From Planctomycetota bacterium (GTDB lineage Bacteria > Planctomycetota > Phycisphaerae > WQYP01): a stretch of DNA of 7,857 nucleotides. Numbering within the stretch: the stretch's first letter is position 1; each line of letters opens with the position of its first letter. A program made the translations under genes and the position numbers. The stretch covers positions 1-7,857 of the forward strand of contig JAJYGE010000449.1 of the NCBI GenBank assembly GCA_021785155.1. The letters are read 5' to 3'. This document shows, piece by piece, positions 2,076 through 4,515 of this stretch. The notes beneath the pieces are model-generated. The model ran no database searches. It saw only the letters and a program-made list of their open reading frames with translations, and was not told the origin of the DNA.

Positions 2076-3050
2076 ATGGCGAGAATCGGTGTTGCACAAA
2101 TGCGTGAGGGGGATGTCATTGATCAGCCTTTTCTGATCTCCGGCAAACAAATGGGAAATACGGTCAGCAATAAGCTTTACCTCAAAGCCACCTGCGCCGA
2201 CGCCACAGGCGAAGTTCATTGCCGCATGTGGAATATTACCAAAGATGTATATGATAAACTTCCGGCCAAGGGCTTTGTTCATGTCCGCGGACGCGTGGAA
2301 AGTTATCAGGGGCATCTGCAGTTGGTGGCGGAAGGCCTGGCACCGATTACCGATACGACCAAGCTGGAACTCGGTCACTTCATAAAAAAGACGCAGAAAA
2401 ATATTCCGGCCATGGTCAGCAGGCTCAAGGAAATTCTCGCCGGTATCAAGGACAAAGATCTCGCCGCGCTGGTGGAATCATTTCTCAATGACAAGGAATT
2501 CATGACGCGGTTCAGCCTTGCCCCGGCCGCGCAATCCATGCACCACGCCTGGCTGGGCGGATTGCTGGAGCATACGCTAAGCCTTCTGGAACTCGCGGTG
2601 GTCATCTGCCCGCGCTACCCGGATATTGATCAGGATCTGATTCTGGCCGGGCTGTTTCTCCATGATATCGGCAAGACCGCGGAACTCTCCTACGATTTCA
2701 TGTTTGACTATACCGATACGGGCAAACTCGTCGGCCACATTGCCCTTGGCACGCTCTGGATCAGTCAGCGCGCCGCCGAAATTTCTGAAAAGCGGGGGCA
2801 CGCGTTTCGCCCGGACATGCTGATGGTGCTGCAGCATATCATTCTGTCCCATCATGGTTTGCCCGAGTTCGGAGCGGCGGTACTTCCCAAAACTCCCGAA
2901 GCGATTCTGGTCAATCTTATCGACAATCTGGATGCGAAAACCCAGATGGCACTCGATGCCGTCGCCGCTCCGACCGAAGATTCCACCTGGACGGAATACA
3001 AAAAGGCATTCAGCACCAGCCTGTATCGGCCATCGATAACCCAGAAGTAG
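2076..3050 (+). CDS. OB-fold/HD-domain 3'-5' exoribonuclease, YhaM-like
   Basis: The 324-residue product matches the size and two-domain layout of YhaM/Cbf1-type exoribonucleases, which trim RNA 3' ends in a metal-dependent way in the cytoplasm. An N-terminal OB fold (about 15-95, with KLYLKATCADATGEVHCRMW at 33-52) is followed by a linker and an HD domain (about 150-295). The HD residues include HHAWLGGLLEHT (His166), the HD pair in LFLHDIGK (His196-Asp197), ILSHHGLPEFG (His259, His260) and LIDNLDAKT with Asp283 and Asp286. The start is set at ATG 2076, 11 bases after AGGAG (2060-2064). An in-frame ATG at 1977 is excluded because it lies in the tRNA anticodon loop. It may be cotranscribed with the tRNA. 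The family call is strong; the true substrate is inferred by homology. Confidence 0.88.
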   Translation: MARIGVAQMREGDVIDQPFLISGKQMGNTVSNKLYLKATCADATGEVHCRMWNITKDVYDKLPAKGFVHVRGRVESYQGHLQLVAEGLAPITDTTKLELGHFIKKTQKNIPAMVSRLKEILAGIKDKDLAALVESFLNDKEFMTRFSLAPAAQSMHHAWLGGLLEHTLSLLELAVVICPRYPDIDQDLILAGLFLHDIGKTAELSYDFMFDYTDTGKLVGHIALGTLWISQRAAEISEKRGHAFRPDMLMVLQHIILSHHGLPEFGAAVLPKTPEAILVNLIDNLDAKTQMALDAVAAPTEDSTWTEYKKAFSTSLYRPSITQK

Positions 3051-3059
3051 CAAATTGAT

Positions 3060-3087
3060 TTGACTTTTCGTGTGACTTGGTTAATAG
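3060..3087 (+). promoter_or_regulatory. Candidate promoter for the aromatic leader and DAHP synthase
   Basis: TTGACT (3060-3065) is a good -35 match. A weaker AT-rich -10 (TTAATA/TAATAG at 3081-3087) follows at 15-16 bases. Transcription would start near 3093-3095, almost on the leader ATG, which has no SD, so the leader could be translated from a leaderless or near-leaderless RNA. The alternative is read-through from the nuclease gene, which ends at 3050. Confidence 0.4.
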
Positions 3088-3094
3088 TGTTGTT

Positions 3095-3178
3095 ATGAAT
3101 AATGTTGCACCAGCTTGCGGCCAGAAACATTCCGATCAAAGTTATCGGTTCTGGTTTTATTTTTATACCGGCGAATGA
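3095..3178 (+). CDS. Aromatic-rich leader peptide of an attenuator (27 aa)
   Basis: The ORF starts at ATG 3095 and stops at TGA 3176-3178. Its N-terminal half is unremarkable, but residues 17-24 (3143-3166) read Y-R-F-W-F-Y-F-Y: three Tyr, three Phe and one Trp in eight codons. Only T-G-E follow before the stop. Such a run is characteristic of leader peptides that sense charged tRNA, as in the E. coli pheA, pheST and trp leaders. The peptide itself probably has no function; its translation is the signal. A ribosome stalled on these codons ends short of the antiterminator arm at 3180, while one that reaches the stop covers it. No SD precedes the ATG, which is the main weakness. The next gene of known function is DAHP synthase, which supplies all three amino acids. 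Confidence 0.8.
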   Translation: MNNVAPACGQKHSDQSYRFWFYFYTGE

Positions 3179-3179
3179 C

Positions 3180-3248
3180 GGCGGGCTGAGTGATCTTTTA
3201 CCATAACAGTAGAGTTAAACCTGAAGCCCGCCACAAGCGGGTTTTTTT
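3180..3248 (+). promoter_or_regulatory. Transcription attenuator (antiterminator/terminator switch)
   Basis: GGCGGGCT (3180-3187) is perfectly complementary over 8 bp to AGCCCGCC (3225-3232), which contains the 5' arm of the terminator hairpin. The two structures cannot coexist. Arm 3180-3187 begins one base after the leader stop codon, so a ribosome finishing the leader would mask it and let the terminator form. A ribosome stalled on the aromatic codons leaves it free and permits read-through. A third segment, CAGCTTGC (3111-3118), can pair with GCGGGCTG (3181-3188) using two G-U pairs and could act as a protector helix when the leader is not translated. That last pairing is tentative. Confidence 0.8.
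3224..3248 (+). terminator. Rho-independent terminator of the attenuator
   Basis: CCCGC (3227-3231) pairs with GCGGG (3237-3241) around a CACAA loop. The stem extends by one G-U and two A-T pairs into a run of seven T (3242-3248). It sits upstream of the DAHP synthase gene rather than after a gene cluster, as expected for an attenuator. It resembles the E. coli trp attenuator terminator in stem sequence (AGCCCGC). Confidence 0.88.
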
Positions 3249-3268
3249 ATTGGCGAAAGGAGTTTGAA

Positions 3269-3391
3269 ATGAATCGACGTTTGCGACAAGAAGTGAGCCA
3301 CGCGCTTATTCTGGCGCATCATGCACTGGCTTTATCAGCGGGTATCCGCGGTGAACTCACGGGGTTGCCGGAGTGTCTTTGGCGGCGCTGA
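3269..3391 (+). CDS. Small hypothetical protein between attenuator and DAHP synthase (40 aa)
   Basis: AAAGGAG (3256-3262) is a strong SD six bases before ATG 3269, only 20 bases after the terminator T-run. The ORF encodes 40 residues: a basic start (MNRRLRQE), a hydrophobic histidine-rich stretch (HALILAHHALALSAG), then ELTGLPECLWRR and TGA at 3389-3391. No family is recognised. About 100 bases then remain before the DAHP synthase ATG, and other frames stay open across parts of them. This could be a genuine small protein, a truncated or frameshifted remnant, or an ORF whose translation merely keeps the mRNA covered. The SD is the only solid support. Confidence 0.45.
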   Translation: MNRRLRQEVSHALILAHHALALSAGIRGELTGLPECLWRR

Positions 3392-3492: not shown

Positions 3493-4515
3493 ATGATCGT
3501 GGTAATGCAACAGGGCGCGGATCAGACGCAGGTGGATCACGTAACGGCATTGATTCGGGAAATGGGACTTCGTGAGCATGTCATCGTCGGCACGGAGCGC
3601 ACCGTGGTGGCCTGCATCGGCGATGAACGAAAAATGGATCCCGACCGGCTGGAAAACGTTGCGGGTGTGGAGAAAGTCATGCCGGTTCTGGCTCCTTATA
3701 AGATGGCGTCCCGTGAAGTGAAAAAGGACCGTTCCGTGGTTGCGCTGGGCGGGACACTTGGTTCCAGCGCGGGCGGGAAAAAAATTGCGATGATCGCCGG
3801 GCCATGCTCGGTGGAGGATCGCGTTAAATTGCTGGAAGTTGCCCATGCGGTAAAAGAAGCGGGTGCGACGGCCTTGCGCGGCGGGGCGTTCAAACCCCGC
3901 ACCAGTCCTTATGCGTTCCAGGGGCTGGGTGAAAAGGGCCTGGAAATTCTCGCCGAGGCGCGGGCGCAGACCGGGCTGGCGGTGGTGACGGAAGTCATGT
4001 CCATTGAGCAGGTTCCGCTGGTGGCAAAATATGCCGATGTGTTTCAGGTCGGTGCGCGAAACATGCAGAATTATAATTTGCTCTGGGCGGTGGGGGAGCA
4101 GAAAAAGCCCGTGCTGCTAAAGCGCGGCCTAAGCGCCACGCTGGAAGAATTCATGCTGGCGGCGGAATATGTCATGTCGCGCGGTAACAGTAATGTGATA
4201 CTGTGTGAACGCGGCATCCGCACGTTTGAATCCTATTGCCGCAATACCCTGCCGCTGGCGATTGTGCCGGAAGTCCATCGCCTCAGTCATTTGCCGATTA
4301 TTGTTGATCCGTCCCAGGGTACAGGCCACGCCCATCTTGTGCCGGATATGTGCCGGGCCGCCGTGGCCTGCGGCGCGGACGGTTTAATTATTGAATGTCA
4401 CAGCGACCCGGAACATGCCCTGACCGACGGGGCTCAATCCATAACACCGCAGGGATTGAAGTCGCTGATGGTTTCACTGAAAAAAATTGCCGCCGCCGTG
4501 GATCGGGAAATCTGA
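3493..4515 (+). CDS. aroF: 3-deoxy-7-phosphoheptulonate (DAHP) synthase, type I-beta
   Basis: The enzyme condenses phosphoenolpyruvate with erythrose-4-phosphate, the committed step of the shikimate pathway. The 340-residue product has the Thermotoga-like layout: an N-terminal ferredoxin-like domain (about 1-65), known in relatives for Tyr/Phe feedback inhibition, a linker, and a TIM barrel from about 97. Motifs are IAGPCSVED (Cys105, metal ligand), [19 protein letters not shown] (129-147), [11 protein letters not shown] (187-197), LLKRG (208-212), [18 protein letters not shown] (271-279), and [13 protein letters not shown] with Glu301 and Asp312. The position expected to be the histidine metal ligand is Gln275 here. 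GGAG (3482-3485) lies seven bases before the ATG. The upstream aromatic attenuator implies repression when Phe, Tyr and Trp are plentiful. The family is certain; the symbol aroF is used by convention. Confidence 0.95.

Follow-up and report, generated by a model that had tools for sequence, protein, structure and literature searches.

In the 7,857-nucleotide stretch of DNA analyzed here (the window), the DAHP synthase operon is very probably controlled by ribosome-mediated transcription attenuation. The grounds are sequence and comparison: the parts themselves, the joint change of arm and terminator, their spacing, and the link to the DAHP synthase gene. The mechanism is the known one of trp and phe attenuation, whereas the version with three amino acids ahead of DAHP synthase looks new. 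An earlier note on this DNA had proposed classical ribosome-mediated attenuation; the conserved aromatic run, the joint change of arm and terminator, and the arm spacing support that proposal, and all coordinates of the note were correct when checked on the sequence. Table 1 summarizes the features.

Table 1. Features of the attenuator region and of the genes behind it (positions of the window).
Feature	Position	Strand	Basis
Promoter -35 box, TTGACT	3060..3065	+	Pattern listing; in 8/8 aligned sequences
Promoter -10 region (TAATAG/AATAGT)	3082..3088	+	Pattern listing, alignment; start codon 6-7 nt downstream
Leader peptide ORF, 27 codons + TGA	3095..3178	+	Sequence; similar leaders in relatives
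Aromatic run Y-R-F-W-F-Y-F-Y	3143..3166	+	Sequence; amino-acid-level selection in relatives
Possible P1 5' strand (C + Trp codon + T)	3151..3155	+	Sequence; paired changes in L097 and L008 by eye
Possible P1 3' strand, ACCGG (Thr-Gly codons)	3167..3171	+	Sequence; paired changes in L097 and L008 by eye
Arm 2, antiterminator 5' strand	3180..3187	+	Sequence; duplex with own terminator arm
Arm 3, antiterminator 3' strand, overlapping the terminator 5' strand	3225..3232	+	Sequence, duplex
Intrinsic terminator, stem 3223-3231/3237-3245, T tract 3242-3248	3223..3248	+	Sequence, terminator listing, fold
Shine-Dalgarno-like AAAGGAG of the small ORF	3256..3262	+	Sequence
Conserved small protein, 40 residues, C-terminal ECLWRR	3269..3391	+	Family alignment, searches
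DAHP synthase with N-terminal ferredoxin-like domain	3493..4515	+	NCBIfam, Pfam

The leader ORF was read directly from the sequence, with its ATG at 3095, its TGA at 3176-3178, and the peptide MNNVAPACGQKHSDQSYRFWFYFYTGE. The 27-codon leader with Tyr-Arg-Phe-Trp-Phe-Tyr-Phe-Tyr at codons 17-24, described in the earlier note, is there as described: codons 17 and 19-24 are aromatic, and codon 18 is Arg. Stretches with at least seven aromatic residues in eight were sought in six frames of 29 loci of L001-L030 (L027 left out; 233,858 bases). As a result, such stretches were found in five leaders (L001, L002, L004, L005, and L030) and once elsewhere (L023), and the leader run was the only one in the window. 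The YRFWFYFY run is not a product of chance. The Pfam and NCBIfam searches with five leader peptides resulted in no matches at E up to 1. At the gathering score, Rfam returned only tRNA for the window, with no T-box or riboswitch match at the leader, and only two T-boxes for eight relatives, both elsewhere in the L066 locus. Additionally, the fold of the leader ORF alone was no better than that of shuffles (z 0.47).

The switch itself lies directly behind the leader. Its eight perfect pairs, claimed before, are present, as the arm at 3180-3187 (GGCGGGCT) and the stretch at 3225-3232 (AGCCCGCC) are exact reverse complements, and so is a terminator with seven T (3242-3248) and the CCCGC/GCGGG pair at 3227-3231/3237-3241. 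The leader stops one base before the arm (the TGA ends at 3178 and the arm starts at 3180), and 13 bases (3167-3179) separate the last aromatic codon, Tyr24, from it. The terminator was found independently at 3223-3245 by the pattern listing, in which the number of terminator patterns was near chance (4 vs 2.5 in shuffles). The duplex between arm 2 and the terminator arm was estimated at -19.2 kcal/mol, and none of 200 shuffles gave one as good. In the fold of the untranslated window leader, the arm pairs with upstream sequence and the terminator hairpin is present. From their sequences, the predicted antiterminator and terminator are mutually exclusive and have one strand in common.

For the comparison with relatives, DAHP synthase was used as the query, which resulted in 79 loci; the closest (L001-L005, L022, and L030, all from Planctomycetota/Phycisphaerales MAGs) were 93-95% identical. 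The 150 genomes searched from the class of the L002 genome, judged to be Phycisphaerae, contained orthologues with ~57-95% identity and a second DAHP synthase copy with ~46-54%, and a part of these, 40 first-copy and 20 second-copy upstream regions, was added. The detector required an ORF with at least four aromatic residues in ten, followed by a T-tailed hairpin 10-70 nt past the stop. Leader and terminator were detected in 44 of the 128 non-duplicate first-copy upstream regions, which belong to several phyla, and no leader was recognized in 84; an earlier version of the detector, later replaced, had given 41 of 129 regions. Ten detections came from L110-L149 (40 regions, ~57-70% identity, with one partial match at 92%), including the weak L136 and the duplicate L146. 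We curated a set of 40 leaders after dropping L007 (mis-called), L136 and L016 (judged weak), and L146 (duplicate).

The arms and terminators of these 40 leaders have changed together. Their own arm/terminator duplexes had a mean of -16.65 kcal/mol vs -10.11 kcal/mol for 1264 swaps between groups, which were drawn by the analyst, and none of 10000 permutations was as good as the own pairings. The arms differ across the groups and match within them (GGCGGGCT/AGCCCGCC, GCGTCCTGA/TCAGGACGC, CCGCATAGGG/CCCGATGCGG, and AATGAGTT/AACTCATT). In an alignment of 14 distant leaders, the terminator was paired in 96.4% of cells and the antiterminator in 89.3%, against at most 40.7% when it was slid; the covariation of the antiterminator was modest, with 50 of 500 shuffles reaching the paired percentage and 32 of 500 the score. 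The joint change of arm and terminator that the earlier note had said to look for is thus favored by the comparison of own with swapped duplexes and is modest within the 14-leader alignment.

The spacing was also considered. By a script count, the arm starts 11-13 nt past the last aromatic codon in 21 of the 33 curated planctomycete leaders and 3 to 19 nt past it in the other 12, whereas the clostridial leaders have it 42-43 nt past that codon. In a ribosome-front model with a 12-nt front, a simple footprint, and no distance-matched control, 36 of the 40 leaders lost at least 4 kcal/mol of antiterminator stability as the ribosome moved from the last aromatic codon to the stop. This result is a consistency check and not a proof, because a ribosome at the stop always leaves a shorter region. 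Within this simple model, the claim that the arm is free at the regulatory codons and covered at the stop holds for the window and 35 others of the 40. The remaining four leaders (L011, L066, L099, and L122) failed the model; in two of them, L099 and L122, the weakening of the antiterminator had set in by the last aromatic codon. The seven closest relatives have their stop codon 3' of the arm and not 5', and a ribosome at that stop would still cover the arm.

A different layout was found in one subclade (L006, L007, L009, and L011, with L013 similar by eye): the arm follows Phe-Trp immediately, and further aromatic codons flank it on either side. Stalling at Phe-Trp would therefore cover the arm, and only the earlier Tyr/Phe codons (in L006 and L007 also Trp) could act classically. 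With the earlier arm, the own duplexes of L006 and L011 reached -18.5 and -25.6 kcal/mol; both were kept in the 40 with poorer values, as the arm was sought only past the last aromatic codon. In Holdemanella porci (L066), a short MNIQSTYFYFYFR leader and a terminator lie 163-112 nt upstream of DAHP synthase, and the duplex search gave no matching or usable arm for this terminator.

The aromatic block was tested for selection with seven window-clade leaders; L030 was left out as near-identical to L002. Summed over all pairs, the ten codons of the block differed 10/22/58 times by codon position, and 54 codon changes were synonymous and 30 were not, 20 of the 30 remaining within F/Y/W. The 13 codons before the block differed 98/108/107 times by position, with 22 synonymous changes and 159 that were not. 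The amino acids of the block are thus kept, apart from exchange between F and Y, its third codon positions vary freely, and the N-terminus drifts, which agrees with the conserved run and drifting flanks that the earlier note had said should be sought. Phe, Tyr, and Trp occur together within ten residues in 38 of the 40 curated leaders, with one Trp in 34 and two in four; the two leaders without Trp are L066 and L103. Because of this conservation, we infer a multivalent function, that is, a response to Phe, Tyr, and Trp, all three.

It is possible, though rather unlikely, that the same attenuator effectively senses a single amino acid, most likely Phe, with Tyr and Trp codons carried along as passengers. 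In the curated blocks, Phe is more frequent than either of the others (146 F, 78 Y, and 42 W), and the free exchange of F and Y in the window clade points the same way, as does the aroR attenuator of C. glutamicum, which has Phe-Tyr-Phe and for which the accessible part of PMC11802643 describes Phe limitation as effective and Tyr supply as without effect. However, 38 of the 40 leaders, which are related and hence not independent, have retained Trp, the rarest of the three residues and one that a pure Phe sensor could do without. The valence varies by eye among the Clostridia, where L195, L197, L200, and L204 are without Trp and L199 and L201 are nearly all Tyr. The question of valence can be tested on naturally occurring variants, as there are lineages with F/Y/W, Tyr-only, and F/W leaders. 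The Phe/Trp leader of the clostridial L198 lacks Tyr, and the gene behind it resembles prephenate dehydratase.

Besides the terminator, the unguided helix scan and RNAalifold gave a second hairpin, P1, in the 14 distant leaders, whose strands are the Gly-Tyr-Phe-Tyr-Pro codons. P1 was paired in 89.3% of cells, and its covariation score was reached by none of 500 shuffles; changes on both sides occurred in three of six pairs, which 21 of 500 shuffles reached. It does not include arm 2. In the window clade, a P1-like pairing surrounds the Trp codon, and L097 and L008 carry matching changes by eye; in the window itself P1 is weak, and the fold prefers another hairpin. We suggest that P1 may act as a pause hairpin. 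Since this codon hairpin covaries, part of the peptide conservation can be RNA pairing.

The same point bears on a quite improbable alternative, an arrest peptide. In TnaC, the nascent chain binds a metabolite and the ribosome stalls, and a leader of that kind could be read from the non-aromatic residues that are conserved, namely R..TG among the window-clade leaders, a consensus of the G.YF.PAG type among the distant relatives, and FWGFYFSAGYLFC, which is invariant in six clostridial leaders. However, the Gly-Tyr-Phe-Tyr-Pro codons of the 14 distant leaders are the covarying hairpin, so the conservation there can be RNA pairing, and the window-clade residues swap within F/Y.

The start of the leader transcript was examined through its promoter. 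A sigma70-like promoter was listed at 3060-3088, with promoter patterns near chance in number (2 vs 1.7 in shuffles). A TTGAC box with a -10 box ending 6-11 nt before an in-frame start codon was found in 32 of the 40 leaders, for which any in-frame start was allowed, and the same test on other start codons gave 39 of 4545. The test was passed by 32 of the 33 planctomycete leaders, the exception being L122. This layout was not found in the seven non-planctomycete leaders (L033, L045, L048, L049, L050, L066, and L077), the stretch fetched for L033 being too short for the test. L206, the copy fetched from the L033 genome, and several other Chloroflexota leaders have TTGAC and a TAGAAT-like box ~10 nt before the ATG. 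The leader mRNA is probably leaderless, because the start codon lies only 6-7 nt past the -10 region.

For the gene-blind searches, we used leader models built partly from the leaders that they match. Model A1 (E<1e-4) matched 16 of the 150 class genomes, and model A2 (E<1e-8) matched 10 other genomes of the 150, with one match each. Weaker single matches were G062 (A1) and G011 (A2). Submitting 246 genomes spread over the whole phylum to A1 resulted in no matches, and an empty result there shows nothing. In Chloroflexota, the phylum of the Thermoflexales MAG, model A7 matched 10 of 121 genomes, all ahead of DAHP synthase. In Clostridia, model A3 matched 16 of 245; by eye, 12 were followed by the start of DAHP synthase and L198 by another gene. 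The A3 matches L202, L203, and L205 were not recognizable as leaders.

That the window holds just an ordinary terminator of the upstream gene beside an unrelated short ORF is scarcely credible: an intrinsic terminator does lie ~170 nt past that gene, which ends at 3050, but a promoter-like sequence and the leader stand between the two, the leader, arm, and terminator are conserved together, 25 of the 26 gene-blind matches lie ahead of DAHP synthase (at the remaining one the contig ends), and similar arrangements occur in Chloroflexota and Clostridia.

None of the 20 upstream regions of second-copy DAHP synthases had a leader and terminator. Some ORFs upstream of the second copy looked aromatic (in L152, L157, and others) but were rejected, as six of the 12 inspected second-copy regions have promoter-like DNA in common and no terminator was found. 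In L152, L153, L155, L156, L157, and L159, a strongly conserved promoter-like block (TTTTTTCGC...GATAATAA) occupies the last 200 bases before the gene, without a leader; it is possibly a regulator site.

For the ribosome-mediated attenuator, the proposed course is as follows. Transcription would start, probably, at or next to the leader AUG, and the ribosome would load with no need of a Shine-Dalgarno site. If the cell ran short of charged tRNA for Phe, Tyr, or Trp, each of the three counting, the ribosome would slow in YRFWFYFY with its front edge short of 3180, arm 2 would pair with 3225-3232, no terminator would form, and the operon would be read. If all three were plentiful, the ribosome would reach the stop and cover arm 2, the terminator would form, and RNA polymerase would leave near 3248. 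More tentatively, the system may be a three-input OR gate of Planctomycetota, Chloroflexota, and Clostridia, in which the charging of Phe, Tyr, and Trp tRNA sets how much flux enters the shikimate pathway as a whole, leaderless mRNA and the codon hairpin synchronize RNA polymerase with the first ribosome, and the amino acids read are tuned by lineage.

The synthesis of all aromatic amino acids enters through DAHP synthase, which E. coli controls by separate isozymes and repressors. The repressors TyrR and TrpR are named in the accessible part of PMC11802643. One leader reading all three products would, if true, show a way to control this entry step without a repressor.

A literature search at the level of titles and abstract openings, with subscription papers mostly outside it, gave no three-amino-acid leader ahead of DAHP synthase. 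The E. coli attenuators pheL/pheA and trpL/trp likewise switch between antiterminator and terminator according to whether a ribosome stalls in the leader; they stand ahead of end-branch genes, read one amino acid each, and have a Shine-Dalgarno start. The aroR transcript of C. glutamicum is leaderless. This attenuator, ahead of aroF (DAHP synthase), is the closest known system (Neshat et al. 2014, as cited in the accessible parts of PMC4046766 and PMC11802643). Like the window, it has an aromatic-codon leader peptide ahead of a DAHP synthase gene and ribosome-mediated attenuation; unlike the window, which has F, Y, and W in a 7-of-8 run, it belongs to another phylum and has only Phe-Tyr-Phe, with no Trp named in those parts. 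The pheL/pheA and trpL/trp attenuators are also named in the accessible part of PMC11802643.

Other described elements are less close. The uORFC-13-1 motif of Acholeplasma (PMC8632094), likened here by its description, is likewise an upstream ORF with a terminator ahead of aroF for which attenuation was proposed; its 24 representatives are from Acholeplasma and environmental sequences only, with at least one Phe residue noted. Attenuation of the E. coli aroF has been hypothesized (PMC8632094), and elements ahead of the Shewanella aroF and aroH were predicted according to the accessible part of PMC2659441. The S. meliloti trpL (PMC7298713) and the Streptomyces leader peptides (PMC8079986) are described in the accessible parts of these papers as leaderless, so that their leader mRNA likewise starts at or near the AUG; however, these leaders concern Trp, Leu, Ile, and others, and not DAHP synthase.

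The downstream gene was classified as DAHP synthase by NCBIfam NF006421 (468.6 bits, cut-off 335), with the Pfam domains PF00793 and ferredoxin-like PF18152. Between the attenuator and this gene lies a small ORF, probably in the same operon. The family predicted from 19 aligned members has 35-52 residues, a Leu/Ile pattern, and one invariant Trp near the C-terminus. It gave one match each in 18 of the 150 class genomes (E<1e-7), always next to DAHP synthase; the 19th match, G093, was weak and not beside DAHP synthase. A search of a 5.8-billion-protein set resulted in 13 matches, the window's own included, and Pfam gave no convincing match. In eight of eight pairs, the third codon position differed most, which speaks for the small ORF being coding, and amino-acid-changing codons outnumbered silent ones. 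No small-protein ORF was found between the attenuator and DAHP synthase in L003 and L022. Judged from these sequences, the predicted family between switch and enzyme is new, and the small protein may be a partner of the enzyme or another leader, one that reads Trp.

In the Chloroflexota loci L206, L212, and L219, an AroH chorismate mutase-like gene lies between the leader and DAHP synthase, in the position of the small protein in the relatives of the window; none was found in L208. Elsewhere in the window, a ~324 bp element at 1551-1874, between hemL and tRNA-Val, has 24-nt inverted terminal arms (96% complementary) and is like a miniature mobile element.
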